From Marivita geojedonensis (GTDB taxonomy: Bacteria > Pseudomonadota > Alphaproteobacteria > Rhodobacterales > Rhodobacteraceae), in NCBI RefSeq assembly GCF_002115805.1, contig NZ_JFKC01000019.1, positions 1 to 64,000 on the forward strand: a stretch of 64,000 bases of DNA, in the 5' to 3' direction. Below, one piece after another: positions 44,131 to 64,000 of the stretch (position 1 is its first letter; each line of letters begins with the position of its first letter). The translations under genes and the position numbers were made by a program. Below the pieces are notes generated by a model, which saw nothing but the letters and a program-made list of their open reading frames with translations, was not told where the DNA came from and did no database searches.

Positions 44131-44133
44131 GGT

Positions 44134-45238: not shown

Positions 45239-46019
45239 GCCCCACCTCTTTCAGGAAATCGCTGATAAGGGCCCCCGCTTGTTCCGGTGCCTCGACACAG
45301 GGCAGATGACCGGTGTTCGGGATCACATGGAACGCACCATTGCAGAGATCTGCCGTCGCTTTCACCATGTCCGGCGTGGTTGAACCGTCCTCGGACCCGG
45401 CCATCGCCATGACGGGCATCGTCAGGCCAGAGGTGGACTCCGTGAAATCCGCCCCCGCAATGGCGGAACAACAGCCGATATAGCCTTCCAGCGGTGTCCG
45501 TGTGAGCATGTTGCGCCAAGGTGCCAGGCGCGCCGCATCGTTGCGCATCTCGGGCGCAAACCAGCGATCAAGAATAGCTTCGGCCATGGACTCGATTCCC
45601 CCGGCCCGCAGCCCGTCAATCCGCTCCTGCCACATCTCGGGCGATCCGATCTTGGCTGCTGTGTCCATGAGAACCAACCCGCGCAGCAACTCCGGCCGAC
45701 GTGCGGCCAGCCCCTGCCCGATCAACCCGCCGATGGACAGACCAACAAACACGATATCCTTGAGGTCGTGAGCGTCGATCACCGCTTCGGCATCATCGAC
45801 AAGCTCGGCGATATCATAGGGGGCTTCGGGGCAATCCGACAGACCATGCCCGCGTTTGTCGAAGCGGACGGTGCGCAGGCCGTCGGGCAGATACGGCAGC
45901 ATCAAATCCCAGACACGCAGATCGGTGCCCAGCGAATTCGCAAACATAACCACTGGGCCAGACTCCGGCCCATCGGTTTGGACATGCAGGGCAATGCCCC
46001 GCGATGTGATGGTTTTCAT
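45231..46019 (-). CDS. pcaD: 3-oxoadipate enol-lactonase
   Basis: A 262-residue alpha/beta hydrolase. The nucleophile Ser is in IVFVGLSIGGLIGQGLA, the acid is near GSEDGSTTPDM and the His is in IPNTGHLPCVEAPE. It hydrolyses the enol-lactone to 3-oxoadipate. Start ATG 46019 has GAGGAG upstream. It is first in the operon pcaDCHGB and is divergent from pcaQ across a 90-bp gap with a PcaQ box. The 3-oxoadipate CoA transferase and thiolase genes (pcaIJF) are not in the window. Confidence 0.94.
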   Translation of the reverse strand: MKTITSRGIALHVQTDGPESGPVVMFANSLGTDLRVWDLMLPYLPDGLRTVRFDKRGHGLSDCPEAPYDIAELVDDAEAVIDAHDLKDIVFVGLSIGGLIGQGLAARRPELLRGLVLMDTAAKIGSPEMWQERIDGLRAGGIESMAEAILDRWFAPEMRNDAARLAPWRNMLTRTPLEGYIGCCSAIAGADFTESTSGLTMPVMAMAGSEDGSTTPDMVKATADLCNGAFHVIPNTGHLPCVEAPEQAGALISDFLKEVGHV

Positions 46020-46091
46020 GAAATGGTATCTCCTCACCCGTTATTTTGCATTTCTTTCTGCGCCTGAAAATTATAATTATTGCGGAAATAA

Positions 46092-46107
46092 TTAACCCAT
46101 AGGTTAT
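46092..46107. promoter_or_regulatory. PcaQ box
   Basis: TTAACC-CATA-GGTTAT, which on the opposite strand is ATAACC-N4-GGTTAA. It agrees at every defined position with the PcaQ binding consensus described in rhizobia. It lies 72 bp upstream of pcaD and 2 bp before the pcaQ start codon, as expected for activation of pcaD and autoregulation. Confidence 0.85.
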
Positions 46108-46109
46108 GC

Positions 46110-47051
46110 ATGATAGATGCGAGACTGCGCCTCCGCCACCTGCGATGTTTCCTCGAAACGGCCCGGCTCGGGTCACTCTCCGCCGCAGCGGACGCGCTGC
46201 ATGTATCTCAACCTGCGGCGTCAAAGACCATTCGCGAATTGGAAGACATTCTTGGCAAAGCGCTGTTCGACCGAAGTCGCCGGCGCTTGTCTCTCACACC
46301 TGCGGGACGGATGTTTCAGCAACATGCTGGCTCTGCCCTGTCGGAACTGTCCCGCGCGCAGGCGCTTGTTAAGGACACACCGTCGCCGATCACACGACTG
46401 GCCGTCGGCGTTCTGCCCACAGCCGCCACGTCGCTGATGCCGCGCGCGGCGCTGAGTTTTCGCAAAGCCTTCCCGAATTGTCTCCTGCGCGTCAGCACCG
46501 GTCCGAACTGGCTTCTCATGTCCCAGCTTCGTGACAGCAGTCTGGATCTTGTGGTGGGGCGTATGGGCACAGCAGAGGTGATGCAGCACTTGTCCTTTCA
46601 TCACCTTTATTCAGAAGACATCGCTGCCGTGGTGCGCCCCGGCCATCCGCTTGCAGACCACCCGACGCCGCTTGACCACCTATCAGAACACCCTCTGCTT
46701 TTGCCGCCACCAGGTGCCGTCATCGCACCGCTTGTACGGGCCCTGCTCGCCCGGCATGGAGTTTCGCCACACACAGCCGCATTCGAAAGCGTCTCGCTCG
46801 CCTTCGGTCGGCGTGTGGTTCAGACATCGGATGCGATCTGGTTCATTTCGCGCGGTGTCGTCGAAGACGAGCTGACGGCCAAAACACTTCTTTCTCTTCC
46901 TTTGCGAGACGAAATCCGCAGCGGCCCGATCGGGGTTTCAATGCGCATGGACGGCGTCCTGAGTGCCGAGCAATCGGGCCTCATCCGCGCCTTGGAAGAG
47001 GCCCGCGCAGAGGTGCGCCCCGGATCACATCAGAAGGGCAGCCCAATATAA
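46110..47051 (+). CDS. pcaQ: LysR-type activator PcaQ
   Basis: A 313-residue LysR regulator starting MIDARLRLRHLRCFLETARL. HTH is about 10-68 (SLSAAADALHVSQPAASKTI, RELEDILG) and the effector-binding domain follows (VGVLPTAATSLMPRAALSF). Position opposite pcaD and the PcaQ box at its start identify it. The known effector is 3-carboxymuconate or a related intermediate. Its 3' end overlaps the convergent pobA gene by 22 bp. Confidence 0.93.
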   Translation: MIDARLRLRHLRCFLETARLGSLSAAADALHVSQPAASKTIRELEDILGKALFDRSRRRLSLTPAGRMFQQHAGSALSELSRAQALVKDTPSPITRLAVGVLPTAATSLMPRAALSFRKAFPNCLLRVSTGPNWLLMSQLRDSSLDLVVGRMGTAEVMQHLSFHHLYSEDIAAVVRPGHPLADHPTPLDHLSEHPLLLPPPGAVIAPLVRALLARHGVSPHTAAFESVSLAFGRRVVQTSDAIWFISRGVVEDELTAKTLLSLPLRDEIRSGPIGVSMRMDGVLSAEQSGLIRALEEARAEVRPGSHQKGSPI

Positions 47052-48199
47052 TTCTCGGCCAGATCCCGCCGGGCAGTTTCCGATTGCGACAGATGACGCA
47101 GCGTGGCCTTGCGCATCTGCGCGGCAAAGCTGTCTTCCCCGTCAAACCGGTGCAGCATCGTCGTCATCTGCCAACTGAACCGCATCGCCTTCCAGATGCG
47201 CAGCAAGGCGCGCTCGGAATAGCTATCGATCCCCGCCGTATCACCCTTCTTCAGCGCATCGATCAACGCCTGATAGAGGTAATGCACATCCGACACCGCA
47301 AGGTTCAGCCCCTTGGCCCCCGTCGGTGGCACGATATGCGCGGCATCCCCCACAAGGAACAACCGGCCCCAGCGCAGCGGCTCGCTCACGAAAGACCGCA
47401 GCGGCGCGACGGATTTTTCGATCGAAGGTCCAGTTTCCATCTTGTCGGCAACGTCCGACGGGAGGCAGGATTTGAGCGTGGTCCAGAAACGTTCATCGCT
47501 CCAGTCTTCGACCCTGTCTGTCAGCGGTACCTGAACGTAATACCGGCTGAGGGTTTCGCTCCGCATCGAAGCAAGAGCAAAGCCATTCGACGAATTTGCA
47601 TAAATCAGCTCTTCATGAGCCGGTCGCGTTCGAGACAGCACGCCAAGCCAGCCAAACGGATATACCCGTTCAAACGCCTGCCGTTTGTGTTCAGGGATCG
47701 TCTTTCGACTGACACCGTGAAACCCGTCACAGCCGGCGACATAGGCGCAGTCCAGCCGTTGACGCCCGCCGTTATGCGTGAATTCCACAAAGGGTGCAGA
47801 GCTGTCCGCATCCTGAATAAAGACATCCTCTACCCCATGCAGAATCTTGGCGCCGATTTGATCCTGCGCAGCGTAAAGGTCAGAGGTCACTTCGGTCTGA
47901 CCATAGACCATGACAGGCGTGCCGGTGAGCTCTCGGAAATTGATCCGCACCATCAGGTCGTCGTCGCTCAGATAGCACCCTTCATGAGGGATGCCTTCCC
48001 GGTCGAGCCGATCCGACACACCCGCCTCGCGCAACATGTCCACGGTTCCCGCCTCAAGCACCCCTGCCCGGATCCGCGACAGGACATGATCGCGCGTTGC
48101 CCTCTCCAGCACCACGGTCGCCACCCCTGCCCGGTTCAGCAGCTGTGACAGAAGAAGGCCAGATGGCCCCGCGCCGATAATCGCCACTTCGGTTTTCAT
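47030..48199 (-). CDS. pobA: 4-hydroxybenzoate 3-monooxygenase
   Basis: A 389-residue FAD monooxygenase, the exact size of characterised PobA. Motifs are IIGAGPSGLLLSQLLNRAG, RIRAGVLEAGTVDMLREAG (PobA-specific), CDGFHGVSRKTIPEHKR and GDAAHIVPPTGAKGLNLAVSD. It makes protocatechuate from 4-hydroxybenzoate with NADPH and O2, feeding the pca operon. GGGAGGAGG precedes the start at 48199. Divergent from the AraC regulator. Confidence 0.96.
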   Translation of the reverse strand: MKTEVAIIGAGPSGLLLSQLLNRAGVATVVLERATRDHVLSRIRAGVLEAGTVDMLREAGVSDRLDREGIPHEGCYLSDDDLMVRINFRELTGTPVMVYGQTEVTSDLYAAQDQIGAKILHGVEDVFIQDADSSAPFVEFTHNGGRQRLDCAYVAGCDGFHGVSRKTIPEHKRQAFERVYPFGWLGVLSRTRPAHEELIYANSSNGFALASMRSETLSRYYVQVPLTDRVEDWSDERFWTTLKSCLPSDVADKMETGPSIEKSVAPLRSFVSEPLRWGRLFLVGDAAHIVPPTGAKGLNLAVSDVHYLYQALIDALKKGDTAGIDSYSERALLRIWKAMRFSWQMTTMLHRFDGEDSFAAQMRKATLRHLSQSETARRDLAENYIGLPF

Positions 48200-48257
48200 G
48201 TCAGCCCTCCTCCCAAAGTCTGATGTATCAGGAATAGGGCGGCGCGGCGTATCAGGT

Positions 48258-48285
48258 AATGGAACCAGTGGGCCATAAATGGTAC
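48258..48285. promoter_or_regulatory. AATGG(A/T)AC direct repeats, likely AraC-type operator for pobA
   Basis: AATGGAAC at 48258-48265 and AATGGTAC at 48278-48285 are 20 bp apart, two helical turns, as often seen at AraC-family sites. They lie between pobA (start 48199) and the AraC gene (start 48295). Inference from position and repeat geometry. Confidence 0.45.
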
Positions 48286-48294
48286 TTTTCGAAC

Positions 48295-49146
48295 ATGAGT
48301 GCAGAAAACACCATTCCCGCTTTCGGGCTGTACGGAGAACGCGATCCGTTTCCGGACGTGATTCATTTCGAAGACTTCTCCGCCCGCGCCCCGGTTCATG
48401 GCTGGCGCATCCTCCCGCATCGGCACAGCCAGATGTCGCAGCTCTTTCTTGTTGATTCCGGATGGATCGATGCCACCACCGACGGGGAAGAGAGACACAT
48501 CACGCCGGATCATTTCCTTTATATTCCAGAGCATTGCGTGCATGACTTTGTTTTCCGACCGGGGACTAGCGGCGGTATCTTTTCCTTCCCGATAAGTGTT
48601 GTGGGGTCGGTCGCGCCAGACACCCATTCTATCCTGTCGGCCCTGTCAAAACCGCTCACCGGGCCACTTTGCCCCCGCCTCAGGCAGATGACTGATTTGC
48701 TGCGCGACATGACACTTGATGCCACGCCCTTCCGCGCCCAACAGGTTGTCGGTTTGGCACATTCCGTGCTTGCCAAACTGGCAGAGACCCGTCAACCGCT
48801 CCCAGAAGGCGCTTCCGGTCGAAAATCCGCGCGTCTCTTCGAACTCGATGATCTGATCACCCGGCATGTTGCAGACGGGTGGACGGCGTCGGCCTATGCC
48901 GATGCGCTTTCGATCAGCACCGGACATCTGAGCCGCCTGTGCCGACATGCCACCGGACTTGGCGCAACCGCGTATATCGAAGAGAAAGTGATGCAGGAGG
49001 CCTGCCGCCTGCTCGCTTTCACACAGCTGCCGATATCCGAAGTCGGCTATCGGCTAGGGTTTCTGGACCCATCCTATTTCTCTAAACGCTTCCGCAACGC
49101 CCGGGGTCAGACACCCTCGGATTACCGTGCAATGTTCACGAATTAG
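48295..49146 (+). CDS. pobR: AraC-family regulator of pobA (PobR-like)
   Basis: A 283-residue AraC/XylS regulator. The N-terminal cupin-like sensor (about 40-100: WRILPHRHSQMSQLFLVDSG, ITPDHFLYIPEHCVHDF) precedes two C-terminal HTHs (TASAYADALSISTGHLSRLC; SEVGYRLGFLDPSYFSKRFR). Divergence from pobA and the sensor type match AraC-type PobR proteins that respond to 4-hydroxybenzoate. ATG 48295 is chosen over 48259, which lies inside the direct repeats. No strong ribosome site is visible. Confidence 0.85.
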   Translation: MSAENTIPAFGLYGERDPFPDVIHFEDFSARAPVHGWRILPHRHSQMSQLFLVDSGWIDATTDGEERHITPDHFLYIPEHCVHDFVFRPGTSGGIFSFPISVVGSVAPDTHSILSALSKPLTGPLCPRLRQMTDLLRDMTLDATPFRAQQVVGLAHSVLAKLAETRQPLPEGASGRKSARLFELDDLITRHVADGWTASAYADALSISTGHLSRLCRHATGLGATAYIEEKVMQEACRLLAFTQLPISEVGYRLGFLDPSYFSKRFRNARGQTPSDYRAMFTN

Positions 49147-52655: not shown

Positions 52656-53891
52656 TCAAACCCTCACAAGGTTGCGGCCAAAGGCGAAGGAAAGTGCGGG
52701 CAGCGACGCCCCGACCATCACCACTGTGGCGACAAGCGCATAGCCGGTGGCGATCGCGGTCAGACCCTGGCCGCTCAGCAGCACGGTGTTTGCCATCAGC
52801 GCGGCGGTCATGGCAGCCGTCACCCAGAACTCGCGATAGGCGCGGTCCGTGGCCCTCAACCAGCCCGCTGTGGCGGACCAGAGTGTTGTCGGAATGGCGA
52901 CAAGGCAGAGGATCGATACGATCTGGTCCAGACCGGTCCAGCCATCGCCAAGCAGCACCGGAACGTAGTAGGGCGCAAGAATTGCCTGCAGAACGACCGC
53001 TGGGGTGATCAATGACATCGCAAGGATCAGGCTTTGCCGAAGCGCCACAGCCTTGTCGTCATGGGCACAGAGATGCGGGAACAGGACGGTCGAGAAAGCC
53101 ACCGAGAAAGAGTTGGCAAGGCTCAGTCCGGCATTGAAGGCCATGAAGTAAAGGCCCAGCGCCTCGGCCCCCATCAGTGTCCCGACGATCAGCTTGTCGG
53201 CCTGCAAGCGCATCGCCTTGATGAGCTCCACCCCAAGAACCGCCCAGCCGAAGCTGACAAACGGGCGCAGCGGCGCGCGACCCTGGCTCAGATCGATCTG
53301 CCAGGGATGCAGCCTGCGCATCGCAACCAGCCAGAACGGCGCGGTCAGCAGCCGTGGCAGGATCAGCGCGAGCGCTGACGGCCAGACCAGTGCCAAAACC
53401 GCCGACAAGAGATTGGCACCGACGTTCTGCGCGCCGGCAATTGCCGCCGTCTGGCGCAGCTTTCCCGCCCGCATCGCCAAGGCCGCCTGAACCAGCCCTG
53501 CCGGCATGAAAAGATACTCGCCGGCCAGAAGCAGGATCAGCGCCAGCAGTTCAAGACTGCCGCCGTACAGATACAGTCCAATTCCAACCCCGGCCTGCAA
53601 GAGAAACAGCCCGACGCACCACGCCCAGAAGATACGGTGCGCAGTAGCACAGGTCTGCGGCAGGTCTTCGTCGCGGGCCGCGATGATCTTTTGGCCGACT
53701 CCATTTTCCGTCAGTGCCTTCAGGATGTCCGCTGCGGCCAATGCCGCCGCGGCGACACCGATCTGCGTCAGATCCAGCGAGCGCGCAACAACAATGACGA
53801 CCAGCAGGCGCGACGCCTTTGCCGCGACCTCGGACGCACCATAGGCGAACAGGTTCTGCGCCACGCGGGATGTTTTCAGTATGGCCGTCAT
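52656..53891 (-). CDS. Polysaccharide flippase (Wzx/oligosaccharide flippase family)
   Basis: A 411-residue membrane protein with about 12 helices. Conserved N-terminal segment is FAYGASEVAAKASRLLVVIVVARSL; later FVSFGWAVLGVELIKAMRLQ and KLIVGTLMGAEALGLYFMAFNAGL are typical of RfbX/Wzx exporters. It would flip the undecaprenyl-linked repeat to the periplasm. Start ATG 53891. It is first in the minus-strand operon, divergent from the export lipoprotein gene, sharing a 200-bp gap with a TATCC-N4-GGATA palindrome. Confidence 0.88.
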   Translation of the reverse strand: MTAILKTSRVAQNLFAYGASEVAAKASRLLVVIVVARSLDLTQIGVAAAALAAADILKALTENGVGQKIIAARDEDLPQTCATAHRIFWAWCVGLFLLQAGVGIGLYLYGGSLELLALILLLAGEYLFMPAGLVQAALAMRAGKLRQTAAIAGAQNVGANLLSAVLALVWPSALALILPRLLTAPFWLVAMRRLHPWQIDLSQGRAPLRPFVSFGWAVLGVELIKAMRLQADKLIVGTLMGAEALGLYFMAFNAGLSLANSFSVAFSTVLFPHLCAHDDKAVALRQSLILAMSLITPAVVLQAILAPYYVPVLLGDGWTGLDQIVSILCLVAIPTTLWSATAGWLRATDRAYREFWVTAAMTAALMANTVLLSGQGLTAIATGYALVATVVMVGASLPALSFAFGRNLVRV

Positions 53892-53990
53892 TTCGGGTCC
53901 GATCAGTTTTGCTGAACCCGGTTTACCCGTTGCAGCGGCCTCGGTCCCGGACGCCCCCGGAGAGGGCAAAGGCGCAACGGAACTGCATCA

Positions 53991-54004
53991 TATCCGAACG
54001 GATA
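53991..54004. promoter_or_regulatory. TATCC-GAAC-GGATA palindrome, site A of putative EPS regulon
   Basis: A perfect 5-4-5 inverted repeat in the gap between the flippase (start 53891) and the export lipoprotein (start 54092), 88 bp before the latter. The same arms and 4-base spacing recur before two other units of this locus. Here it follows no gene, so a terminator role is excluded for this copy. Confidence 0.55.
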
Positions 54005-54091
54005 GCGCGTTCATGCCAACATCCTCTCGACAGACAAAAGCGGGATTGCCTATCAAGGCACAAACCGGTGGTTTCGGGATCCGACAGGCAA

Positions 54092-55306
54092 ATGTGGCAA
54101 TCATTGAAATACGGAACGGCATGCGCCGCCGTTCTGGCGCTTGGAAACTGCGCCGGGTTCGACACGCCGGACAACCTCGAGCCCATTGCCACTGGCGACG
54201 GCTATCAGGCGCAGTACCGCTCCCCGGATGTGAGCCGCGCCGATGCGTCATTCCTCCGATCCGAGCAGATCAACGCCAGCAAGTGCCTGCCTGCGCGTGG
54301 CGGTGCGGATGGCAAGGGCGGTGCCATTGCGGCGCACGCCCTTCGCGGAGAACGTCTGTCCCGCAACGATCTCGTCAACATCCGCGTCGGCGACGACGAA
54401 ACCTTCAACGGCGATTATGTGGTCTCCCGTGACGGCACTTTGAAGCTTCCCTTCCTGTCACCCATCCGGGCACAGGGACGCAGCACAGCAGATGTCGAAA
54501 CCGACATTGCGAACCAGTTGCTGGCACAGGATTTCTTTTCCGAGCGGCCCCGGATCTCTGTCCGGATCGCCGATTTTGCTTCGGTCACCGTCGGTGTGTC
54601 GGGTGCGGTATTCGAACCCCGCGCAGTCGAAATCGGCGGCATCCCCGGCGATCAGGTCGACAGTCGCCGGCAGGCCGCCCTGGGTGCAGCCGGTGAAGGC
54701 CGAAACCTGTCCGCCGCGCTGCGGGCCGCCGGAGGTATTCGCCCGGATGCCGATATCTCCGCAGTCGAACTGCGTCGAAACGGGACGCTCTACAAGCTCG
54801 ACATGCGCGGCGTGTTTGAGGGCCGCAATGCGGTCGATGTCATGCTGCTCACGGACGACGAGGTCTCTGTGCCCAGCCGGGGATGCTTCCAGGACGATCT
54901 GATGCGCCCCAGCCCGATCAGCCCACCGGGCGTGTCGCTGTTCCTGTCGAACCTCACACAACCCGCTGCCGGCAATGCAATCTCGGCGGTCGGGCGCGAC
55001 GTCCGGGAAATCCCCTATGGCACGCGGTATCTGCAGGCCGTGATCAATACAAACTGCGTCGGCGGCGCCCGCGCCAGCAGCGCGGACCGGTCGGCAGTTC
55101 TGTTTTCGCGAAACCCGGTCACCGGGGTTTCGGTTGTCATCGAACGCGATATCGAAGACCTGCTCCGCCGGGCGGATCGGGATGACTACGACCCGTATCT
55201 GCTGCCCGGCGACTCGATCGCCTGCTACGACAGCACGATCACGAATGTCGGTGAGGTCGGCCGCGTTCTTGGCATTCTGGGGCTGACGGCAGCAACAGCA
55301 CTTTGA
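54092..55306 (+). CDS. Polysaccharide export outer-membrane protein (Wza-like)
   Basis: A 404-residue secreted protein of the OPX family. The N-terminus MWQSLKYGTACAAVLALGNC is a signal with a lipobox-like Cys at about residue 20 (Asn at -1 is atypical). The poly-export domain follows (DLVNIRVGDDETFNGDYVVS, GTLKLPFLSPIRAQGRSTAD), then two SLBB-like repeats (FASVTVGVSGAVFEPRAVEI; AALRAAGGIRPDADISAVEL). It forms the outer-membrane exit channel. Start ATG 54092; the longer frame extends into the flippase gene and is rejected. Confidence 0.88.
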   Translation: MWQSLKYGTACAAVLALGNCAGFDTPDNLEPIATGDGYQAQYRSPDVSRADASFLRSEQINASKCLPARGGADGKGGAIAAHALRGERLSRNDLVNIRVGDDETFNGDYVVSRDGTLKLPFLSPIRAQGRSTADVETDIANQLLAQDFFSERPRISVRIADFASVTVGVSGAVFEPRAVEIGGIPGDQVDSRRQAALGAAGEGRNLSAALRAAGGIRPDADISAVELRRNGTLYKLDMRGVFEGRNAVDVMLLTDDEVSVPSRGCFQDDLMRPSPISPPGVSLFLSNLTQPAAGNAISAVGRDVREIPYGTRYLQAVINTNCVGGARASSADRSAVLFSRNPVTGVSVVIERDIEDLLRRADRDDYDPYLLPGDSIACYDSTITNVGEVGRVLGILGLTAATAL

Positions 55307-55336
55307 CAGCCACAACGCGGAAAGCGGTCGGCACGG

Positions 55337-57901
55337 TCAGGCGTTCATTTGATCCCGAGGAACGGCCCGCCGGTCTGCATGCATCAGGGGGCGGGTCGTA
55401 TTCCAAACCGCCGGGAGCGCATAAATCGCAGCCTGCGTTGCCGCTCGATCATTGAGTTTCGCCGCTGTTTCAATATCGACAAGAGCGTTTCGCAGCGCGA
55501 CCGCTCCCATCGTAGCCGCACTTCCCGCGATGCGGTGTGCCATGGCGGCAGTTTCCGCGAAGTCGCTACCATCGAACTGGGCAAGATCTGACGAAACCTG
55601 ATCCACCTCCGCCACAAACCGGTCAAGCAGAACCTGAAGCGTATCGACGCCCAGGCTGTCCCGCAGGTCATCGATATAGCCCGTGGCCACAATGTGATCT
55701 GGGGATGTATCGCCTGTTGCGCCGCCCTCATCCACCTGCCCTGACACGATCCGCAGCAGGGCCTCACGGTTCAGCGGCTTGGTGAGGATGTCGTACATCC
55801 CGTCCGACAGATAGGCTTCCTGTTCCGATGCCATGGCGTTTGCAGTCACGGCGATGATCGGCGTCTTGGCGGACAACCCCTGCCCCGCGCGGATTTCGCG
55901 CGTCGCCTCGCGTCCGTCGAGAACCGGCATGCTGATATCCATGAGGATCAGATCGAACGCGTGATCCCGTGCAACCGTAACCGCCTCGCGGCCATTCGTG
56001 GCCTCGGTCACCCTATGCCCCGCGGATTCGAGCATTTCACGGGCCACCTCGCGGTTGATCACATTGTCTTCCACCAGAAGAACGTGGCAACCCTTCCCGT
56101 TCGGTGCGGCTTTCCTGCGGTTGCGCGCTGCCTCCGGCGCGGCAACCGGCTCCACTGGTATTCGGATCGTAAAGGTACTGCCAACGCCCTTCTCGCTCTG
56201 GACATCGATGCTGCCGCCCAGCGCCTGCGCGAACCGTTTTGCAATGCCAAGACCAAGACCCGTCCCACCGACGTCCCGGCCATACGAGCTGTCACCCGTG
56301 ACGAAATCATCGAAGATCTGGCCCATGATCGACGGATCTATACCGATCCCGGTGTCTGTGACGGTGACACTCAACTCGGGGCGCATTTCGTGATCGCGCT
56401 GAACCGCTGCCGTCACACGGATACTTCCATCATGCGTGAACTTCACCGCGTTGCCGATCACGTTCATCAGAATGTGCTGCATCCGGTCGCGGTCGCCCCG
56501 GATCCAGTCAACAGGCTCACCACTCCACCCCCATTGAAGGGTCAAATTGTTGGCCGAGGCCGCGCCGCTCTGGTTGTCGATGATATCCTGAATCAGCATG
56601 CTGACATTCATCTCAACAGGGCGCAGCCGCAACTTGCCCGCATCGTATTTCGTAATGTCCAGAACGTCCGAGATATGGCTCATCAGAAGCTTGCCCGACG
56701 TATCCATGTTGCGGATATATCGCGCCTGCTTGGCGGTCAGTTTCGTTTCATGCAGCAGAGAAAGATTGCCCAGCAACCCATTGAGAGGCGTCCGGATTTC
56801 GTGACTCATCGTTGCAAGAAAATCGGTCTTGGCCTTTTCTCCGGCAAGTGCGCGGTCGCGCGCGGCTACCAGCTCTTCCTCGGCTTTGACGCGTTGTGAA
56901 ATGTCCCGCAGAAAGGCGATGAACACCTCACCGCTGTCTGTCTTGGCCGACTGAATGGCAAGTTCCACGGGGAAGATCGCGCCAGAGGCGCGCTTCGCCT
57001 CCAGCTTGATCCGGCCTTTCCCGACGACCCGCTTTTCACCGGACTCGCGCATTCTCTGCATTCCAGCCGCGTGTGCTTCGCGGTGGTGGTCCGGAACGAT
57101 CAACGCGCCGAGGTCATGCCCGATCGCCTGCTTTGCCGAGTAGCCGAAGATCTGCTCCGCCGCCGCGTTGAACTCCAGAACACGGCCCTGCTGATCGCTC
57201 ACGATCACCGCATCAAGCGCAGTTCCGATCACCGTGCGCATGCGGTTGCTGGCCTCGATGGCTTCGGCCCGGCGTCGGACGTTCTGGGTGTTGAGATAAT
57301 TCAGGTAAACCGCAAGCAGCATCAGAGCCACAAGCAACAGCGTAACAACCGCAGCCATCTGCGTAAGTGTCACCGCCACGTTGGACCTGCGACGGTCGGA
57401 TTCCAGGGCGAAGTAGTTCAGACCCGAATTCGACAGGGCCCTGACGCTGGGGCGCAGGGTCTGCGCCCGAACCAGAAGCTCTGGAAGAGATGCCGTCAAG
57501 TCCGCGTCGCTGGCGTCAATGAACGGGACCGCATCCTGCAAAAACGCATCAACGCGGTTCAGGTTGACCGAAAACTCATCGATCCCGCGCAATGGCGCAT
57601 AGAGTGACGACTCGCGCAACGTCTTGATACGGCTGTAGAAAATATCGAACTCGCGCCTCAGATCGCGCAGCCTTGGCGTGTCTGCGTTGGCCGCGTCGAT
57701 CAGCTTGAATTCAAACTCGAGGAATTCAACTTCCGCCTGCGACAGCGTCCATTGAACATTGTCCGACCGCGCCGAATTCAGAAGCCGCAGATCCTGCGCA
57801 ACGTTCACCGCCATGAAGATGGTCGCGGAAAAACCGACAACCGCCAGAAGAATCCAGACGATGGCGCGTGACCGCAGCAGTTTTGTCATCAGCCCAAACA
57901 T
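55337..57901 (-). CDS. Hybrid sensor histidine kinase (HisKA-HATPase-REC-HPt)
   Basis: An 854-residue ArcB-like kinase. TM1 about 12-34; a periplasmic helical sensor 35-181; TM2 182-202; a PAS domain about 220-340 (DAVIVSDQQGRVLEFNAAAE); HisKA with His367 (TMSHEIRTPLNG); HATPase (NVIGNAVKFT, GTGLGLGIAKRF); a receiver with Asp655 (LILMDISMPVLDG); and an HPt with His789 (AMAHRIAGSAATMG). The phosphate would go on to a separate regulator, most simply the LuxR-type one at 61150. It is directly downstream of the PruR-like periplasmic protein, whose signal it probably reads. A long hairpin covers part of its ribosome site. Confidence 0.92.
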   Translation of the reverse strand: MFGLMTKLLRSRAIVWILLAVVGFSATIFMAVNVAQDLRLLNSARSDNVQWTLSQAEVEFLEFEFKLIDAANADTPRLRDLRREFDIFYSRIKTLRESSLYAPLRGIDEFSVNLNRVDAFLQDAVPFIDASDADLTASLPELLVRAQTLRPSVRALSNSGLNYFALESDRRRSNVAVTLTQMAAVVTLLLVALMLLAVYLNYLNTQNVRRRAEAIEASNRMRTVIGTALDAVIVSDQQGRVLEFNAAAEQIFGYSAKQAIGHDLGALIVPDHHREAHAAGMQRMRESGEKRVVGKGRIKLEAKRASGAIFPVELAIQSAKTDSGEVFIAFLRDISQRVKAEEELVAARDRALAGEKAKTDFLATMSHEIRTPLNGLLGNLSLLHETKLTAKQARYIRNMDTSGKLLMSHISDVLDITKYDAGKLRLRPVEMNVSMLIQDIIDNQSGAASANNLTLQWGWSGEPVDWIRGDRDRMQHILMNVIGNAVKFTHDGSIRVTAAVQRDHEMRPELSVTVTDTGIGIDPSIMGQIFDDFVTGDSSYGRDVGGTGLGLGIAKRFAQALGGSIDVQSEKGVGSTFTIRIPVEPVAAPEAARNRRKAAPNGKGCHVLLVEDNVINREVAREMLESAGHRVTEATNGREAVTVARDHAFDLILMDISMPVLDGREATREIRAGQGLSAKTPIIAVTANAMASEQEAYLSDGMYDILTKPLNREALLRIVSGQVDEGGATGDTSPDHIVATGYIDDLRDSLGVDTLQVLLDRFVAEVDQVSSDLAQFDGSDFAETAAMAHRIAGSAATMGAVALRNALVDIETAAKLNDRAATQAAIYALPAVWNTTRPLMHADRRAVPRDQMNA

Positions 57902-57910
57902 GCTGATCCT

Positions 57911-57955
57911 CCTTGGCGAAGTCGGGTTCCTGGGGAGAACCCGACCCCGCCAAGG
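57911..57955 (-). promoter_or_regulatory. Long hairpin touching the ribosome site of the hybrid kinase
   Basis: Two stacked stems: CCTTGGCG/CGCCAAGG (8 bp) outside and GTCGGGTTC/GAACCCGAC (9 bp) inside, with a small asymmetric bulge and a 7-base loop. It fills the 55-bp gap between the PruR-like stop and the kinase start. The 3' arm ends in AAGG, the first part of the kinase AAGGAGG site, so folding should lower kinase translation. Confidence 0.6.
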
Positions 57956-57956
57956 A

Positions 57957-58463
57957 TTACTCGACTGCTTCCAGCCGGTCGAGTTGCCAAATACTGCGGG
58001 AATAGATCACTTCGGTCCGATAGTCCGAATTGCTGTCATAGGGGTAAATCACCCAAAGCGGCCCCTTGTCGCGCACCGACATGGTTTCGCCGTCCATGCG
58101 ATAGGCCACGATCGGCCCTCCATCGACAGCATCCGAAAGCGGAATGTCCACAGCATAATCATTGATCGCTGTTGCACGCAGGTGGCTTCCTTCGAGTCCA
58201 AGGTGTTCGATCAGGGTGGCCAAGGCCACCCCCTCGAAGGTCTTGGGCCCTTCGGTCCAGATGGTCGTGGTCTCGATTGTTGTGGAACCAAGAGCCTCGA
58301 GCATCTCGAGATCGAATTGGGCGCTGTCATCAACGTTGGTGGTGGCAATCTGACCGGTAATTGTCAGGATGACATCGCCCTTTGGCGTCGCCAGATCCTC
58401 CGCAAATAGCGGCATGGCTGACATGGCGACAAACGCGGAAACTGTGGCTACGGCACGAAACAT
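57957..58463 (-). CDS. PruR-like periplasmic SUOX-fold (pterin-binding type) protein
   Basis: A 168-residue secreted protein with a signal peptide (AFVAMSAMPLFA, cut about residue 21). The rest has the oxidoreductase molybdopterin-binding fold (ILTITGQI; TFEGVALATLIEHLGLEGSH; AINDYAVDIPLSDA; GPLWVIYPYDS). It contains no cysteine, so the Cys that binds molybdenum cofactor in sulfite oxidases is absent and redox enzymology is unlikely. PruR of Agrobacterium, a periplasmic pterin-binding protein of this fold, controls a membrane regulator of biofilm formation; homologues are linked to sensor genes. Here it precedes a hybrid kinase by 55 bp. Confidence 0.8.
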   Translation of the reverse strand: MFRAVATVSAFVAMSAMPLFAEDLATPKGDVILTITGQIATTNVDDSAQFDLEMLEALGSTTIETTTIWTEGPKTFEGVALATLIEHLGLEGSHLRATAINDYAVDIPLSDAVDGGPIVAYRMDGETMSVRDKGPLWVIYPYDSNSDYRTEVIYSRSIWQLDRLEAVE

Positions 58464-58539
58464 GATAAGAAGTCCTCTCGAAATCTCGCGGGATATGACA
58501 TGAAACGGGACGCTGACCTAAGGGGCAGACGGATACCAC

Positions 58540-58557
58540 CCTATCCTTTCGGATAGG
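58540..58557. promoter_or_regulatory. CCTATCC-TTTC-GGATAGG palindrome, site B of putative EPS regulon
   Basis: A perfect 7-4-7 inverted repeat, extended to 9-bp arms at 58538-58559. It lies 77 bp before the PruR-like start codon and 32 bp after the galU stop. A further half-site (GAAGGATAGG) is at 58571-58580. It might alternatively be a galU 3' hairpin, but no T-tract follows and the arms match sites A and C. Confidence 0.55.
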
Positions 58558-58589
58558 GTCACCGCATCACGAAGGATAGGAGCGCCGCA

Positions 58590-59477
58590 TCAGGCAGCCC
58601 GAAGCACCTGCGCCGTCCGGGCCTGCATGAAGGTGCAGAACGCATCGGCCAGATCCGGGCGGTCCATGACATATGCGGCTGTCGCCTGCACAAAGCCCTG
58701 GACCGACCCGCAGTCGAACCGCTCTCCTTCGAACCGGAAGCCGCTGACACCCACATTGGCCAGATCGGCATTGATTGCGTCGGTCAGCTGCAATTCGCCA
58801 CCGGCACCCGGTCCGAGGTTGGCCAGACGACCGAAGATGGATGGCTCAAGGATATAGCGACCGACAATGGCCTGCGTGGAAGGTGCCCGCTCGGGCTGCG
58901 GCTTCTCAACCAGCCCGCGTGCGTGCGACAGACGACCGGTCGTGCTGGCGACGTCAAGGATACCGTAGGATGAGGTTTGCGACCGGGGCACATCCATAGT
59001 CGCCACCATGTGCCCCCGCGTTTCGCGATGCGCGGCAACCATCTGGCTCAGAGCGCCGCGCGGTGCCCGAATGACATCGTCAGGCAAAAGCACCGCAAAA
59101 GGCTCGTCGTCGATCAGTCGGGCTGCCAGCCCCACCGCGTGACCCAGCCCGCGCGGTTTTGCCTGACGCACGAAGGTCAGCGCGCCATCTGCCATCCGCG
59201 TCCGGGCCAGGGCCGCCAGGGCGTCGGTCTTGCCCGCTGCCTCAAGGCGCTGTTCCAGCGTGGCGGCGGTGTCGAAGTAATCTTCCAGTGCGCCCTTCCC
59301 TGCGGCGGTCACAAAGATGAACTCCTCGATCCCCGCGTCGCGGGCTTCGTCCACCGCGTACTGGATCAGCGGTCGGTCGATCAGCGGAAGCATTTCCTTG
59401 GGGATCGACTTGGTGGCGGGCAGAAAACGCGTTCCCATGCCAGCTACTGGGAAAACGGCTTTACGGATATGTGTCAT
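58590..59477 (-). CDS. galU: UTP-glucose-1-phosphate uridylyltransferase
   Basis: A 295-residue nucleotidyltransferase: KAVFPVAGMGTRFLPATKSI (UTP loop), PKEMLPLIDRPLIQYAVDEA, LPDDVI, and GLVEKPQPERAPS. It makes UDP-glucose for the polysaccharide. Start ATG 59477 has AGGA about nine bases upstream; ATG 59483 is an alternative. It follows the fused transferase gene by 34 bp in the same direction. Confidence 0.93.
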   Translation of the reverse strand: MTHIRKAVFPVAGMGTRFLPATKSIPKEMLPLIDRPLIQYAVDEARDAGIEEFIFVTAAGKGALEDYFDTAATLEQRLEAAGKTDALAALARTRMADGALTFVRQAKPRGLGHAVGLAARLIDDEPFAVLLPDDVIRAPRGALSQMVAAHRETRGHMVATMDVPRSQTSSYGILDVASTTGRLSHARGLVEKPQPERAPSTQAIVGRYILEPSIFGRLANLGPGAGGELQLTDAINADLANVGVSGFRFEGERFDCGSVQGFVQATAAYVMDRPDLADAFCTFMQARTAQVLRAA

Positions 59478-59511
59478 GGTCATGGTCCTGTTTACGGGTT
59501 GAAAACCGGGG

Positions 59512-60903
59512 TCAGTACGCGCCGCGTCCAGAGACGACCGCGCCAAACGTTTTGAAGATCAGCACGATATCGAGCAGCAGCGTGCGCGAAACGGCATAGG
59601 AAATGTCCATCTCGACCATGTGGTCGAAATCGATGTTGGCGCGGCCCGAAACCTGCCAGACACCGGTGATACCCGGCTTGACGGCAAGCCGTCCCATGGC
59701 GCGCTTCGGATAGGCAGCGACCTCGGAAGGCAGCGCAGGACGCGGGCCGACGATCGACATCTCACCGCGCAGAACGTTCAGGATCTGCGGCAGCTCATCG
59801 ATCGACAGGCGACGGATGATGCGACCGACACGCGTGACCCTCGGATCGTTGCGTGACTTGAAGCACATCCCGTTCCGGTCAGAGGTCTCAAGCAAAGCGG
59901 CACGCCGTGTCTCGGCATCGGTCGACATCGACCGGAATTTGAACATGGTGAAGTGCGTACCAGCGCGGCCCACACGTGTCTGCCTGAACAGAACCGGTCC
60001 CCGGCTGTCCAGCCGAATGGCGACGGCAGTGGTCAGCAGAAGCGGTGACAGCAGGACAAGCGCCGTCGCAGACACGGTCACGTCAAGGAACCGGCGCTGA
60101 AACGCGGCGAAACCGCCCTGCATCACAACCGTTTTTGCGGCATGGGCCAGAAAAGTCAGATTACCGGCCAGATAGCGTTTGGCCAGGCGGCGCGGCTCCT
60201 GCGCGAGACGCCAGCCCCACTCCATGCGCGCTTTCCGAACGAATTCCGGAGCACGCGAGACAGATCCAGCCAGGAAATCGAACAGCGCACCCACAGCAAG
60301 CGTGAGCGGGGCATCAAGACGATGCGCGTTCCGGTGCAGCCAGATCTCCTGCATCGGAACACCCAGCGCGACCAGAACGATATCCGCGCCGCTCTCGTTG
60401 ATGTCGTCGATCACCGCATCCGTGTCAGCCGCACCCGCATATCCGTCGCGGGTTCCCGCAATTCGCAAACCCGGAATCGCATGAACAAGTTTGATCGCTG
60501 CCGCATCTGCAGTTCCCGGCTTGCCGCCGAACAGGAAAACCGATTTGCCCATCCGGGCGGCCTGCTCGAGCAGCGCTGGAACAAAGTCGGTTCCGTTGAG
60601 ATTCTCGGCCAGCTGCACACCGCTCATCTTTGCGGCGATCTCCACCCCGATTCCATCGGGCAGCAGCATGTCTGCGGCAGCAACAGCTTCGGCATAGGCG
60701 CGGTCCCGGCGGCGCACGTTGCAGCAATGCGCATTCATGAAGAACACGCGACGGCGGCCCGGCGCCAGCAGCGCCGTAATCGCCTGAGCCGACGTGGCGC
60801 TGACAAGATCAAGGTCAAGCGCGCGTACAAACGTGGTCTTCAGACGCGGCAGGTTGACCAGTTCGGCAAGATCGAACTCGGTAGAAAAAGAGGTATGTTT
60901 CAC
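59512..60903 (-). CDS. Fusion of WecG/TagA glycosyltransferase and phosphoglycosyl transferase
   Basis: A 463-residue two-domain protein. Residues about 30-250 are a WecG/TagA/CpsF (GT26) domain (FFMNAHCCNVRRRD; LPDGIGVEIAAK; LNGTDFVPALLEQ; VALGVPMQEIWLHRN). Residues about 270-463 are a bacterial sugar transferase with one membrane segment (RRFLDVTVSATALVLLSPLL), then FTMFKFRSM, LSIDELPQILNVLRGEMSIV, GPRPALP and VKPGITGVWQVSGR. It could transfer the first sugar phosphate to undecaprenyl phosphate and add the second sugar. The start is GTG 60903 with AAGGA seven bases upstream; an ATG further up lacks a site. Confidence 0.87.
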   Translation of the reverse strand: MKHTSFSTEFDLAELVNLPRLKTTFVRALDLDLVSATSAQAITALLAPGRRRVFFMNAHCCNVRRRDRAYAEAVAAADMLLPDGIGVEIAAKMSGVQLAENLNGTDFVPALLEQAARMGKSVFLFGGKPGTADAAAIKLVHAIPGLRIAGTRDGYAGAADTDAVIDDINESGADIVLVALGVPMQEIWLHRNAHRLDAPLTLAVGALFDFLAGSVSRAPEFVRKARMEWGWRLAQEPRRLAKRYLAGNLTFLAHAAKTVVMQGGFAAFQRRFLDVTVSATALVLLSPLLLTTAVAIRLDSRGPVLFRQTRVGRAGTHFTMFKFRSMSTDAETRRAALLETSDRNGMCFKSRNDPRVTRVGRIIRRLSIDELPQILNVLRGEMSIVGPRPALPSEVAAYPKRAMGRLAVKPGITGVWQVSGRANIDFDHMVEMDISYAVSRTLLLDIVLIFKTFGAVVSGRGAY

Positions 60904-61048
60904 GTTACAGGTCCTTGCGGTATCGAGATTTGCGCAGAACCTGACGCCTTCGACGCGTTGCCTCAACGTGGCGGACGGACAGCGGTTTGGGACTTTGGTT
61001 AACGCTCACAGCCAGTGGGAGCGGAACACCTACCCGGACGTTCCGGAA

Positions 61049-61064
61049 CCTATCCGTTTGCGCT
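61049..61064. promoter_or_regulatory. Half-palindrome CCTATCC before the LuxR regulator, site D
   Basis: CCTATCC-GTTT with a degenerate right arm, starting 101 bp before the regulator start at 61150. It is preceded by the related CCTACCCGG at 61029-61037. It may be a weaker autoregulatory site of the proposed EPS regulon. Half-sites this short can arise by chance. Confidence 0.3.
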
Positions 61065-61149
61065 AACCTTGGGTCTCAAAATTGCTCGATTTTTGCCGTG
61101 CAACTGCGCCGTGTACCGTATATTTCTGGCACCACCCGAGGAGAGAGTG

Positions 61150-61764
61150 ATGCGTGTTCTTATTGCCGATGACCATGATTTGCTGCGTGACACGCTGGTG
61201 ATGTTTCTCCAGTCGCAAAGCGACATTGAAACAAGCTCCGCTGCGGACTTCTCGGAAGCCTGCAAGAGAATCGAATCCGACGACCCGTACGATCTCATCC
61301 TGCTTGATCTGAACATGCCCGGCATGAACGGGCTGGACGGTCTCAAGACGGCGATGACCCTGAAGGGCGGTCAGCGCGTGGCGCTGCTGTCGGGCTCGGC
61401 ATCCCGCGACATCGTCGAGAAAGCGCTCGAAGCCGGGGCTGCCGGCTTCGTTCCCAAGACGCTTCCCGCGAAATCCATGATCAACGCCGTGAAGTTCATG
61501 GCCATGGGGGAACAGTACGCACCCATCGATTTCATGACGGCGACCGAGGAAACCCCCTCCCACCCGCTCGCGGACAAACTGACCCCCCGCGAATTGCAGG
61601 TGCTCAAAGGACTGACCGAGGGCAAGTCGAACAAGGAAATCGCACGGGACCTCGACATCACCGAACCAACGGTAAAGCTGCACATGAAGACGCTGTACCG
61701 CAAACTCGATGCATCGAACCGGACGCAGGCAGCATTGATCGCGCGCGAGGCAGGGCTGTTCTGA
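61150..61764 (+). CDS. LuxR/NarL-type response regulator
   Basis: A 204-residue response regulator. The receiver (1-120) has the phospho-acceptor Asp in LILLDLNMPGMNG, Ser in ALLSGSASRD and Lys in AGFVPKTLPAK. The C-terminal HTH is LTPRELQVLKGLTEGKSNKE followed by LDITEPTVKLHMKTLYRKLD. ATG 61150 follows GAGGAGAG. It lies between the fused transferase and the GumC-like gene and is the natural output partner for the hybrid kinase nearby. It probably recognises the TATCC-N4-GGATA sites; that is inference. Confidence 0.92.
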   Translation: MRVLIADDHDLLRDTLVMFLQSQSDIETSSAADFSEACKRIESDDPYDLILLDLNMPGMNGLDGLKTAMTLKGGQRVALLSGSASRDIVEKALEAGAAGFVPKTLPAKSMINAVKFMAMGEQYAPIDFMTATEETPSHPLADKLTPRELQVLKGLTEGKSNKEIARDLDITEPTVKLHMKTLYRKLDASNRTQAALIAREAGLF

Positions 61765-61766
61765 CC

Positions 61767-61780
61767 CATCCCTTCGGATA
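61767..61780. promoter_or_regulatory. CATCC-CTTC-GGATA palindrome, site C of putative EPS regulon
   Basis: A 5-4-5 inverted repeat with one mismatch (extended form CCCATCC-CTTC-GGATAGG), 3 bp after the response-regulator stop and 91 bp before the GumC-like start. No T-tract follows. Spacing to the start codon is close to that of sites A and B. Confidence 0.5.
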
Positions 61781-61870
61781 GGTCTTGCTCCGAATATCCC
61801 GCCTGACCATCCGAGCGCGTGGAAGATCACGGAACAAAGCTGGTGTAGCACTGAGGACAGGAGATGCCTC

Positions 61871-63316
61871 ATGTCGCTACAAACCGCCCAGTCAGGACTT
61901 CTGACACCACCTCTACTGCGCCGCCGCTTGCCCCTGCGGCGCATCCTGATGGGCGGTCGCCTCAGCGACATGGGGCGTTTCCCTCGGTACCTTGCGTTTG
62001 CTCTCTTGGGTGGCGCGATGATTTGGGCTCCAATCACCGGCTACCTGCGCACGGCACCGCTCGCGTTCAAATCGCAGTCCTCACTTATCCTGCCCGGTTC
62101 CGGTGCGTCGGCATCGATGAACCTCAATGGAATCGGGCAGGCTTCTTCCTACGCAAACTCGGCCTTCGCCAGCAATTCGGTCAGCCCAACCGAAACCTAC
62201 AAGCGCCTGATCGGCGCAGACCGCATCCTCGCAGCCGCAGCCAAGTCCATGGAACTGAGCCGCGCCGAGTTCGGTCAGCCCCGGATCAAACTGGTTGACC
62301 AGACCAGCCTCATTCATCTCGAAATCACCGGTCGCAGCGCCGAAGACGCACAGGCGCGCGGCAACGCGCTTTTGACAGCGTTTTTTGCAGAACTCGACGC
62401 GCTTCGCGCCGACGAACAGATGACCCGCGAAGACAGCGGGCTTGCCGCAATCGCGGACTACCAGGCATCCGTCGCCGCCACGCGCGCAGATATCGCACGG
62501 CTCCAGCAGGACACCGGGCTGATCTCGGCGGAACAGTATGATGCGATGGTCGAAGCGACCCGCGAGCTTGATGCCCGCGTTCAGGATCTCGCCGCAACCC
62601 TTCAGGAAAAGACCCAACGCGTTTCGGCCCTTGAGACAACGCTGGGCCTACCCGCTCAGGCCGCCGCAGCAACGCTGAAGCTCTACGCCGACGCACAGTT
62701 CACCGCCCTCACAGACGAGGTCGGGCTGCACGCTGCAACTCTGGCCGAAGCCCGCGCCCGCTTTGGCGAGAACCACCCCAAGGTGCAGGAGGCCCGCGCC
62801 GCACACAAGGCCGCGCAGGCGGCAGCGCTCGAACAGGCCAGCATCGTCACGGACCTGCCCCGCGCCGATCTCGAAAACCTTGACCTCGCTCCGGCAGGCG
62901 CGCGGGCCGAGCTTCTGGCCGAACTCGTCCGCATGGATGCCGAACGCGCCGGGCTTGCAGAACAGCACGTCGCCCTGTCGCACCGTCTTGAAACCGAACT
63001 CGACCGGCAGGCCGAACTCGCGGCACCCGCGGCGCGCCTGCAGGATCTTCAGCGCGATTTCTCGGTGGCCGAAGCCGTCTTCGCCTCCGCCATCGCACGC
63101 TCTCAATCCACGAAGTCGGATGTTTACGCGTCCTACCCGCTGGTTCAGGTCCTTGAAAACCCGTCCCTGCCGGACAGCCCATCGTCCCCCAATCGGAAAC
63201 TGGCCATCGCTGCCGGTGCTGCCGCGACCCTGATGCTGTTGATGGGCCTCGTACTGGGCTGGATCCGCTCTGCCGTCATCAGCCGGCTGCTGAACAAACC
63301 GAACGACGCAGTATGA
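61871..63316 (+). CDS. GumC/Wzz-type polysaccharide chain-length protein
   Basis: A 481-residue polysaccharide co-polymerase. TM1 about 38-60 (FALLGGAMIWAPITGYLRTA), a long periplasmic domain with coiled coil (about 180-395, rich in Ala/Glu/Arg heptads such as LDARVQDLAATLQEKTQRVSAL), a PxxP-like segment NPSLPDSPSSPNRK and TM2 (LAIAAGAAATLMLLMGLVLG). There is no C-terminal kinase domain, so it is the kinase-less PCP type, and regulation here is transcriptional rather than by Wzc phosphorylation. Start ATG 61871 follows GGAG. Overlaps the next gene by 4 bp. Confidence 0.88.
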   Translation: MSLQTAQSGLLTPPLLRRRLPLRRILMGGRLSDMGRFPRYLAFALLGGAMIWAPITGYLRTAPLAFKSQSSLILPGSGASASMNLNGIGQASSYANSAFASNSVSPTETYKRLIGADRILAAAAKSMELSRAEFGQPRIKLVDQTSLIHLEITGRSAEDAQARGNALLTAFFAELDALRADEQMTREDSGLAAIADYQASVAATRADIARLQQDTGLISAEQYDAMVEATRELDARVQDLAATLQEKTQRVSALETTLGLPAQAAAATLKLYADAQFTALTDEVGLHAATLAEARARFGENHPKVQEARAAHKAAQAAALEQASIVTDLPRADLENLDLAPAGARAELLAELVRMDAERAGLAEQHVALSHRLETELDRQAELAAPAARLQDLQRDFSVAEAVFASAIARSQSTKSDVYASYPLVQVLENPSLPDSPSSPNRKLAIAAGAAATLMLLMGLVLGWIRSAVISRLLNKPNDAV

Positions 63317-64000
63317 TCCCGCGAAACCCGGCAGAAACCATCGTCTACAGGACGATGGTTTTCACCTGGCCGTTCTACGCGGTCGGGGCGCTTTATGTGG
63401 TCGGGCCGGTCCTCGCCTGGGTCCTCGGCATGCTGGCGCTTCTTGCGCTCTATCTCGGCCCGGCGATCCGCGAAGACCTGCGCGCAACCGGTCCGGTGCC
63501 GCCGCTTGTTCTGGTCTGGATGCTTGGCATGTTCGTCATGCTTGTTGCGCTCTGGGTTGGGCACCTCGATTGGGGCCTTGGCCTGAAACAGACCATCAAG
63601 TCCTCGATCGGCTGGGCCAAGGGTTGGGCGCTTCTGGCACTCTTTCCCCTCGTAGGTGCCGTGCTGCCGATCCGACGTGATATCCTGATCCGGGGGCAAT
63701 GCGTGATCGGCATGTGGACGCTCGCCCTCGCGCCCATCCTGCTCGCCGCGCCCTATATCGGCCTGCCAGAGCGGATCTTCACCTCACCCCTCAAGGCCAT
63801 AGGCGGCCCGGGGCCAGAGTATTTCAGCGTCTATTTCTTCACCTACGATCCCGCCAGTTGGACCCCGCGCTGGCAGTTCTACGCGCCATGGTCGCCCTTC
63901 GCCGCTTTGCTCGGAGTGATCATGGTTCTCTTCGCGCTCGAAGAGAAAAACCGCAAATGGATGATCGCCGGAGTTCTGGGCGGCGTTCTGATGATCCTGG
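63313..64000 (+). CDS. Membrane protein, probable polysaccharide polymerase/O-antigen ligase-like (partial)
   Basis: At least 229 residues, cut by the window edge. It begins MIPRNPAETIVYRTMVFTWP at 63313, overlapping the GumC-like stop (ATGA). It has several hydrophobic helices (LYVVGPVLAWVLGMLALLAL; LVLVWMLGMFVMLVALWVG; WTLALAPILLAAPYIGLPE; FAALLGVIMVLFALEEKNRK) with a loop containing YFFTYDPASWTPRWQFYAPW. The layout and locus suggest a Wzy-type polymerase or O-antigen-ligase-like protein. The diagnostic C-terminal loop is outside the window, so the call is tentative. Confidence 0.6.
   Translation, partial: MIPRNPAETIVYRTMVFTWPFYAVGALYVVGPVLAWVLGMLALLALYLGPAIREDLRATGPVPPLVLVWMLGMFVMLVALWVGHLDWGLGLKQTIKSSIGWAKGWALLALFPLVGAVLPIRRDILIRGQCVIGMWTLALAPILLAAPYIGLPERIFTSPLKAIGGPGPEYFSVYFFTYDPASWTPRWQFYAPWSPFAALLGVIMVLFALEEKNRKWMIAGVLGGVLMIL

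Follow-up and report, generated by a model that had tools for sequence, protein, structure and literature searches.

The inverted repeat CCTATCC-N4-GGATAGG precedes the export, chain-length and sensor genes of an exopolysaccharide locus of Marivita geojedonensis, with a half-degenerate copy ahead of the regulator gene. We propose, from sequence comparisons and with a probability of about 0.8, that this 18-bp box serves as operator for the REC-GerE (NarL-type) response regulator encoded at 61150-61764 of the same locus. The window, i.e. the whole stretch of DNA analyzed, comprises 64,000 nucleotides (contig NZ_JFKC01000019.1, positions 1 to 64,000); its relevant features are collected in Table 1. 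The original prediction had read the repeat as an operator joining these genes in one regulon, and the comparison with relatives supports it: the box is kept in the export, chain-length, sensor and regulator promoter gaps, and its presence follows that of the regulator.

Table 1. Genes and sites of the exopolysaccharide locus, in window coordinates.
Feature	Position	Strand	Evidence or remark
Flippase, polysaccharide synthase family	52656..53891	-	Polysacc_synt_3 1.7e-28; probable ATG start 53891
Box A, CATATCCGAACGGATAGC	53989..54006	.	Between divergent flippase and wza; 2 mismatches to CCTATCC-N4-GGATAGG
Wza-like polysaccharide export protein	54092..55306	+	Pfam Poly_export 2.3e-12
Hybrid sensor kinase, DTB type	55337..57901	-	N-terminal WX7E, then PAS-HisKA-HATPase-REC-Hpt (Pfam)
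PruR-like pterin-binding-family protein, 168 aa	57957..58463	-	PF00174; 7kos E 3.3e-41, residues 23-164
Putative pruR -10, TGT-CATATC	58492..58497	-	TGNCATA pattern of pruR promoters
Third half-site	58531..58535	-	TATCC on minus strand; 5-9 bases past box B towards pruR; direct reading
Box B, CCTATCCTTTCGGATAGG	58540..58557	.	Upstream of pruR; perfect arms reach 58538-58559
Extra half-site GGATAGG	58574..58580	.	galU side of box B; 23-nt direct repeat 58551/58574
GalU-like nucleotidyltransferase	58590..59483	-	Upstream neighbour of box B; Pfam NTP_transferase 3.2e-27
Fused WecG/TagA glycosyltransferase and bacterial sugar transferase	59512..60903	-	PF03808, PF02397; divergent from luxR
Box D, half-degenerate copy	61049..61066	.	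Upstream of luxR; left half CCTATCC kept
LuxR/NarL-type response regulator, REC + GerE, 204 aa	61150..61764	+	PF00072 1.1e-21, PF00196 4.2e-21
Box C, CCCATCCCTTCGGATAGG	61765..61782	.	Directly 3' of luxR, upstream of gumC; 1 mismatch
GumC/Wzc-like chain-length protein	61871..63316	+	Pfam GNVR 0.00023, under the curated cut-off; synteny

Direct reading of the window confirmed the sites that had been noted: TATCC-GAAC-GGATA at 53991-54004 (A), TATCC-TTTC-GGATA at 58542-58555, extended to 9-bp arms at 58538-58559 (B), CATCC-CTTC-GGATA at 61767-61780 (C) and the half-site CCTATCC ahead of the LuxR-type regulator at 61049-61055 (D). The spacing to the start codons, put at about 80-90 bp, comes to 76-88 bases when measured from the 18-bp boxes: 85 from A to wza (ATG 54092), 76 from B to pruR (ATG 58463), 88 from C to gumC (ATG 61871) and 83 from D to luxR (ATG 61150). 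Two half-sites beside B, GGATA at 58531-58535 and GGATAGG at 58574-58580, had been omitted. As for site D, boxes in the wecG/luxR or galU/luxR gap of relatives lie 85-106 bases from luxR in 10 of 15 cases and 130-242 bases in the other five, and by the same measure D lies at 84 bases; because these fuller boxes stand at a similar distance, D looks like a decayed copy of the relatives' luxR-promoter box.

The proposed binding protein is the only one of ten locus proteins scanned that carries a DNA-binding domain. Its nearest solved relative is NarL (1a04, E 4.9e-28), with further matches to the solved NarL/FixJ-type proteins VraR (5hev) and DesR (4ldz), and its residues D53 and K103 are invariant in 19 aligned sequences. 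A LuxR quorum-sensing receptor was considered and rejected, the protein having a REC domain instead and no autoinducer domain at E 0.01. Most loci with a box retain the regulator's recognition helix, E(P/V)T(V/I)KLH, with KLY in L124 and L165 and EAT in L162 and L164; covariation between this helix and the box was dropped as evidence, being too confounded by clade.

Conservation of the box was analyzed in two samples of relatives. The regulator was first sought in 61 genomes, of which 20 stretches of at most 20 kb were read, and a copy with at most two mismatches was present in all 8 stretches whose regulator shares at least 60% identity and in 3 of the 12 below 60%. The second sample, chosen by the regulator, comprises 80 loci (the best 80 of 428 regulator relatives in the GTDB contig collection, 1.454 Mb) and overlaps the 246-genome set used below (L147 is G020). 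That same L147 is labelled Oceanobacillus sp. HTM 045 and matches G020:C509, from the window's own family, in length and locus position; it is probably a mislabelled record. In the 80 loci the box occurs at 25, 40 and 39 places with 0, 1 and 2 mismatches, respectively. The 65 copies with at most one mismatch compare with 4 over ten other spacings together (0-3 and 5-10), 1 for reversed arms and a mean of 0.026 for 39 shuffled arms; a fortieth shuffle equalled the real arm and was excluded, and the arm written backwards is identical to the real pattern, so it was dropped as a control. The excess shrinks at two mismatches, with 39 copies versus 26 over the ten spacings and 6 for reversed arms.

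Of the 104 places, 82 lie in gaps between recognised module genes and the other 22 are never inside one. Once symmetrised, the 82 gap copies read CCTATCC G(A/T)(A/T)C GGATAGG, with weaker outermost C/G. A copy with at most two mismatches (at most one in parentheses) is found in the flippase/wza gap of 16 of 21 loci (10), the luxR/gumC gap of 16 of 20 (11), the wecG/luxR gap of 13 of 20 (5), the galU/pruR gap of 11 of 13 (10), the pruR/wecG gap of 6 of 6 (5) and the galU/luxR gap of 2 of 2 (1), and in only 15 of 29 pruR/luxR gaps (9). Conservation in orthologous promoters, which the original prediction had named as a check, is thereby found for the wza, gumC, pruR and luxR gaps. For three gaps involving the kinase gene the numbers are small (GTa/kinase 1/3, GT1/kinase 1/1, kinase/wecG 1/1). 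Within operons no copy with at most two mismatches was found in the kinase/pruR (0/47), GTa/GTb (0/23), GTa/flippase (0/21), GT1/GTb (0/12) and galU/wecG (0/11) gaps of the 80 loci, nor in four further single gaps. The kinase/luxR gaps are also empty at this threshold (0/11), and two of these are divergent, which counts against the operator reading. Variant boxes with TATAC in one half, such as CCTATAC-N4-GGGTAGG and CCTATCC-N4-GTATAGG, were seen in L140, L141, L144 and L159, which have more distant regulators, and a few occur in full exopolysaccharide loci (L117, L131).

The pruR promoters carry additional structure. When 32 deduplicated pruR promoters were scanned offset by offset, 18 of them had TATCC, with one mismatch allowed, at offset +5 past the box, where the mean count per offset was 0.58. 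TGNCATA, again with one mismatch allowed, was found at offset 40 in 7 promoters and at offset 41 in 5, the mean per offset being 0.20. The pruR promoter of the window has both elements, the third half-site (58531-58535) and a TGNCATA-type element (58492-58497, minus strand). No clear third half-site was found in the wza, gumC, luxR and flippase promoters. If TGNCATA is the -10 element, the pruR box would be centred at about -64 and the third half-site at about -48.

These distances bear on the direction of control. One could assume that the regulator binds the box but represses the exopolysaccharide genes until a signal removes it. Palindromic operators serve both activation and repression, and no strong -35 was found, both of which would suit a repressor; however, the predicted -10 is not covered by the pruR box, which stands some 50 bases further upstream, a usual place for NarL-type activation. 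We thus regard repression as unlikely, while leaving it a real share of the probability. A scan with the sigma-70 consensus found no promoter at the boxes and did not flag the putative pruR -10; it is therefore the spacing alone that argues for activation over repression.

A second question is which protein reads the box. It could be a different one, for example a global regulator encoded elsewhere, for which the NarL-type regulator would be just one target. The presence of the box in the regulator's own promoter in many loci agrees with this idea, and co-occurrence alone cannot separate a binder from a target. On the other hand, the box tracks the NarL-type regulator over 246 genomes and falls near control level where the regulator is missing, the nine other locus proteins scanned have no DNA-binding domain, and luxR-pruR-kinase loci without nearby export genes often retain the box (L118, L120, L125, L173). 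A different binder is therefore rather improbable in our view.

The 246 genomes were taken one per genus, with the window's own genome (G000) included among the 45 that have a close regulator, and were classed by their regulator match as close (E up to 1e-74), distant (E up to 1e-50) or none. Of the 45 genomes with a close regulator, 39 contain a copy with no more than one mismatch (100 sites versus 6 for the reversed control), as do 46 of the 76 with a distant one (74 versus 16) and 32 of the 125 without a match (38 versus 24). Fisher tests of this co-occurrence give 6.9e-13 and 1.3e-6, values that ignore the relatedness of the genomes. Among the 38 sites in regulator-less genomes, one sequence of the type CCTATCCCGAYGGATCGG accounts for nine, and we take it for a putative conserved coding stretch. 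In six close-regulator genomes (G075, G123, G152, G210, G221 and G237) copies with at most one mismatch are missing. Of these, G123, G210 and G221 were reread, and some of their expected gaps hold weaker matches to the box, at two to four mismatches; the flippase/wza gap of G123 and G210 holds no copy even at two to four mismatches.

The same dependence on the regulator appears within the 80 loci. Where the regulator shares at least 50% identity, a copy with at most two mismatches is found in 35 of 48 stretches that include pruR (29 with at most one mismatch) and in 12 of 18 that do not (7 of 18 with at most one). Below 50% identity it is found in 1 of 14, again with at most one mismatch, and this one, L168, is barely under the border; many distant regulators have no recognisable copy nearby. 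In four genomes (G022, G234, G248 and G145) the contig that carries wza, gumC and the flippase gene is a different one from that of luxR-pruR-kinase. Both places have the box: in the order given, the copy in the flippase/wza gap shows 1, 2, 2 and 1 mismatches and the copy in the pruR-side gap 1, 0, 1 and 2. Finally, exopolysaccharide loci that lack the regulator, in which box and regulator might have been dissociated, are almost absent: where Wza is matched at E 1e-60, in 25 genomes, 24 also have a regulator match at E 1e-50. The exception, G090, has neither a regulator match at E 1e-50 nor, in the stretch fetched, a copy with at most two mismatches, and its Wza and GumC relatives are distant (42 and 38% identity).

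Some copies lie away from the module. In G017, five copies with at most one mismatch (L096-L100) have no module genes around them, and the luxR-pruR-kinase stretch of this genome (L066) has no copy with at most three mismatches. Neighbours of outlying copies were sampled non-randomly, from 16 stretches picked by eye, and 20 of the 22 chosen proteins were scanned. They include a family-2 glycosyltransferase (L123), a polysaccharide pyruvyl transferase (L162), REC-SpoIIE phosphatases (L112, L164) and a FecR/glucodextranase-domain protein (L152), next to others without a common theme (racemase, nitroreductase, rhodanese, DctP, TfoX, PP-loop and two DUFs), and 6 of the 20 have no Pfam match at 1e-4. 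The phosphatase genes (L112 10968-12170, L164 10951-12168) lie downstream of luxR with the box between, and the phosphatase may give this module a further signalling output.

The orientation of the genes around the box addresses a further explanation, raised as a caveat in the original prediction, namely that the repeats are transcript-end hairpins, with B at the end of the galU transcript and C at that of luxR. Both sites do sit 3' of genes, their arms could fold in RNA, and 12 of the 16 copies between luxR and gumC begin within 12 bases of the end of the luxR match. However, copies with at most two mismatches occupy 44 of 72 divergent and 38 of 171 tandem gaps of the 80 loci and 0 of 20 convergent ones, 18 of these 20 being wza/kinase gaps. 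Convergent gaps are where terminators should be found; a distribution rich in divergent gaps and empty in convergent ones is the pattern of an operator. Moreover, the sites have no T-tract, a terminator scan flags none of A, B and C, and the bases between the arms are biased too, G(A/T)(A/T)C. The empty convergent gaps contradict the caveat, and we consider hairpins very improbable. Assignment to the class of intrinsic terminators was likewise rejected, a stem followed by a T-run at gene ends not being found, and an Rfam search of 53000-63500 returned no element at the gathering threshold.

In the genome of M. geojedonensis itself (4.31 Mb), B is the sole 18-mer without mismatch and C the sole one with a single mismatch, so that the count at up to one mismatch is 2 places versus 1 for the reversed control; A is one of seven places with two mismatches. 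The 14-mer TATCC-N4-GGATA has 5 perfect copies in the genome, A and B among them. In the window, 5 places match it with at most one mismatch, whereas 100 shuffles gave 0.59 such places on average and never as many as 5; two of the five are unrelated, 55936 falling in the kinase gene and 41484 within long open frames. That the sites are chance repeats in a GC-rich genome has a negligible probability: the 14-mer with at most one mismatch is found at 77 places genome-wide (37 for the reversed control) and the 18-mer, at up to two mismatches, does not exceed its reversed control (9 versus 13), but the copies are conserved in orthologous gaps and stand out from the motif controls in relatives. The 18-bp form discriminates through its best copies, not by copy number. 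A random distribution over the genome, which the original prediction had said would refute it, was not seen, since the best copies cluster in the locus and, across the 246 genomes, copies track the regulator. Nine outlying places were checked (three perfect 14-mers and six 18-mers), and all lie within mechanical open frames of at least 213 codons; therefore no further target outside the locus was recognised among them.

The operator reading would gain a signal input from the two genes behind box B. By sequence, the PruR-like protein belongs to the solved pterin-binding family. The kinase encoded directly downstream of pruR carries WTLSQAEVE in its N-terminal region, predicted to be periplasmic, which corresponds to the WX7E motif given for DcpA-type periplasmic regions in the available part of PMC13259868. 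In 46 aligned kinase N-termini, that of the window included, W is kept in 46 and E in 41, with D for E in 5, and the 80 loci hold 47 adjacent tandem pruR/kinase pairs. Because adjacency, the WX7E motif and the PAS, HisKA, HATPase, REC and Hpt domains are all present, the two proteins would, by these tests, form a PruR-DTB pair.

We infer DNA binding, pterin sensing and the direction of control, and propose the following scheme. PruR and the WX7E region of the kinase would sense an extracellular or redox signal. Phosphate could then pass from HisKA to REC, to Hpt and finally to Asp53 of the regulator. The phosphorylated regulator dimer would bind the palindrome, at pruR centred about -64 from the predicted start with the third half-site helping, and the bound regulator may activate the genes for export, chain-length control and repeat-unit flipping as well as those of its own sensor. 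A broader and more tentative proposal, to which we give somewhat less than even odds, is that this is a regulon across Rhodobacteraceae, in which extracellular pterin, or its redox state, acts through PruR, a DTB hybrid kinase and a phosphorelay on one NarL-type regulator and one box governing a complete exopolysaccharide export machine. The sensor promoter has an extra directional half-site and would therefore offer the strongest operator, to the sensor's own positive loop.

Two other observations concern the surroundings. The WecG/TagA and sugar transferase fusion (59512-60903) corresponds to two separate pieces in L113 and L264 by tblastn. Further upstream, 43531-49146 holds two dioxygenase subunits (one with a protocatechuate 3,4-dioxygenase beta N-terminal domain), an alpha/beta hydrolase, a LysR regulator, a FAD-binding enzyme and an AraC regulator, which we take to be a probable protocatechuate/4-hydroxybenzoate degradation cluster.

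A parallel can be drawn with several known systems. The regulator shares its REC and GerE architecture with the NarL/FixJ-type regulators NarL (1a04), VraR (5hev) and DesR (4ldz), for which a two-fold symmetric site is usual. To our knowledge, the sequence and N4 spacing of CCTATCC-N4-GGATAGG match no known NarL/FixJ class site. A search with the exact box letters gave nothing useful among the matches listed, and in the open-access literature searched we found no description of the box, its regulator or the targets of PruR-DTB kinases.

The closest likeness is to the PruR-DTB systems described in the available part of PMC13259868, where likewise a PruR-like protein is encoded directly upstream of a WX7E kinase with PAS, HisKA, HATPase and REC domains; the example in its figure is Ruegeria pomeroyi DSS-3, and PruR-linked kinases are reported there as widespread. 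Section 8 of that review assigns the DTB kinases neither a response regulator nor an operator or target genes, and the review's main text as available never uses the term "response regulator". The present system differs in that an Hpt domain, a NarL-type regulator and an exopolysaccharide regulon defined by the box are joined on. The types of part are thus known, and their union into one regulon with a readable operator is undescribed as far as the open-access literature goes. For one branch of the PruR-linked kinases there is now a candidate for the regulator, together with a legible DNA site and a list of targets, so that what PruR-DTB controls becomes testable, and the exopolysaccharide regulon of many Rhodobacteraceae could be read from sequence through the box. 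Finally, the PruR-DcpA system of Agrobacterium, according to the same part of PMC13259868, likewise places an adhesive polysaccharide and biofilm under PruR-linked control. Its output is cyclic di-GMP via DcpA, whereas we propose that here the output would be transcription, reached via a phosphorelay.
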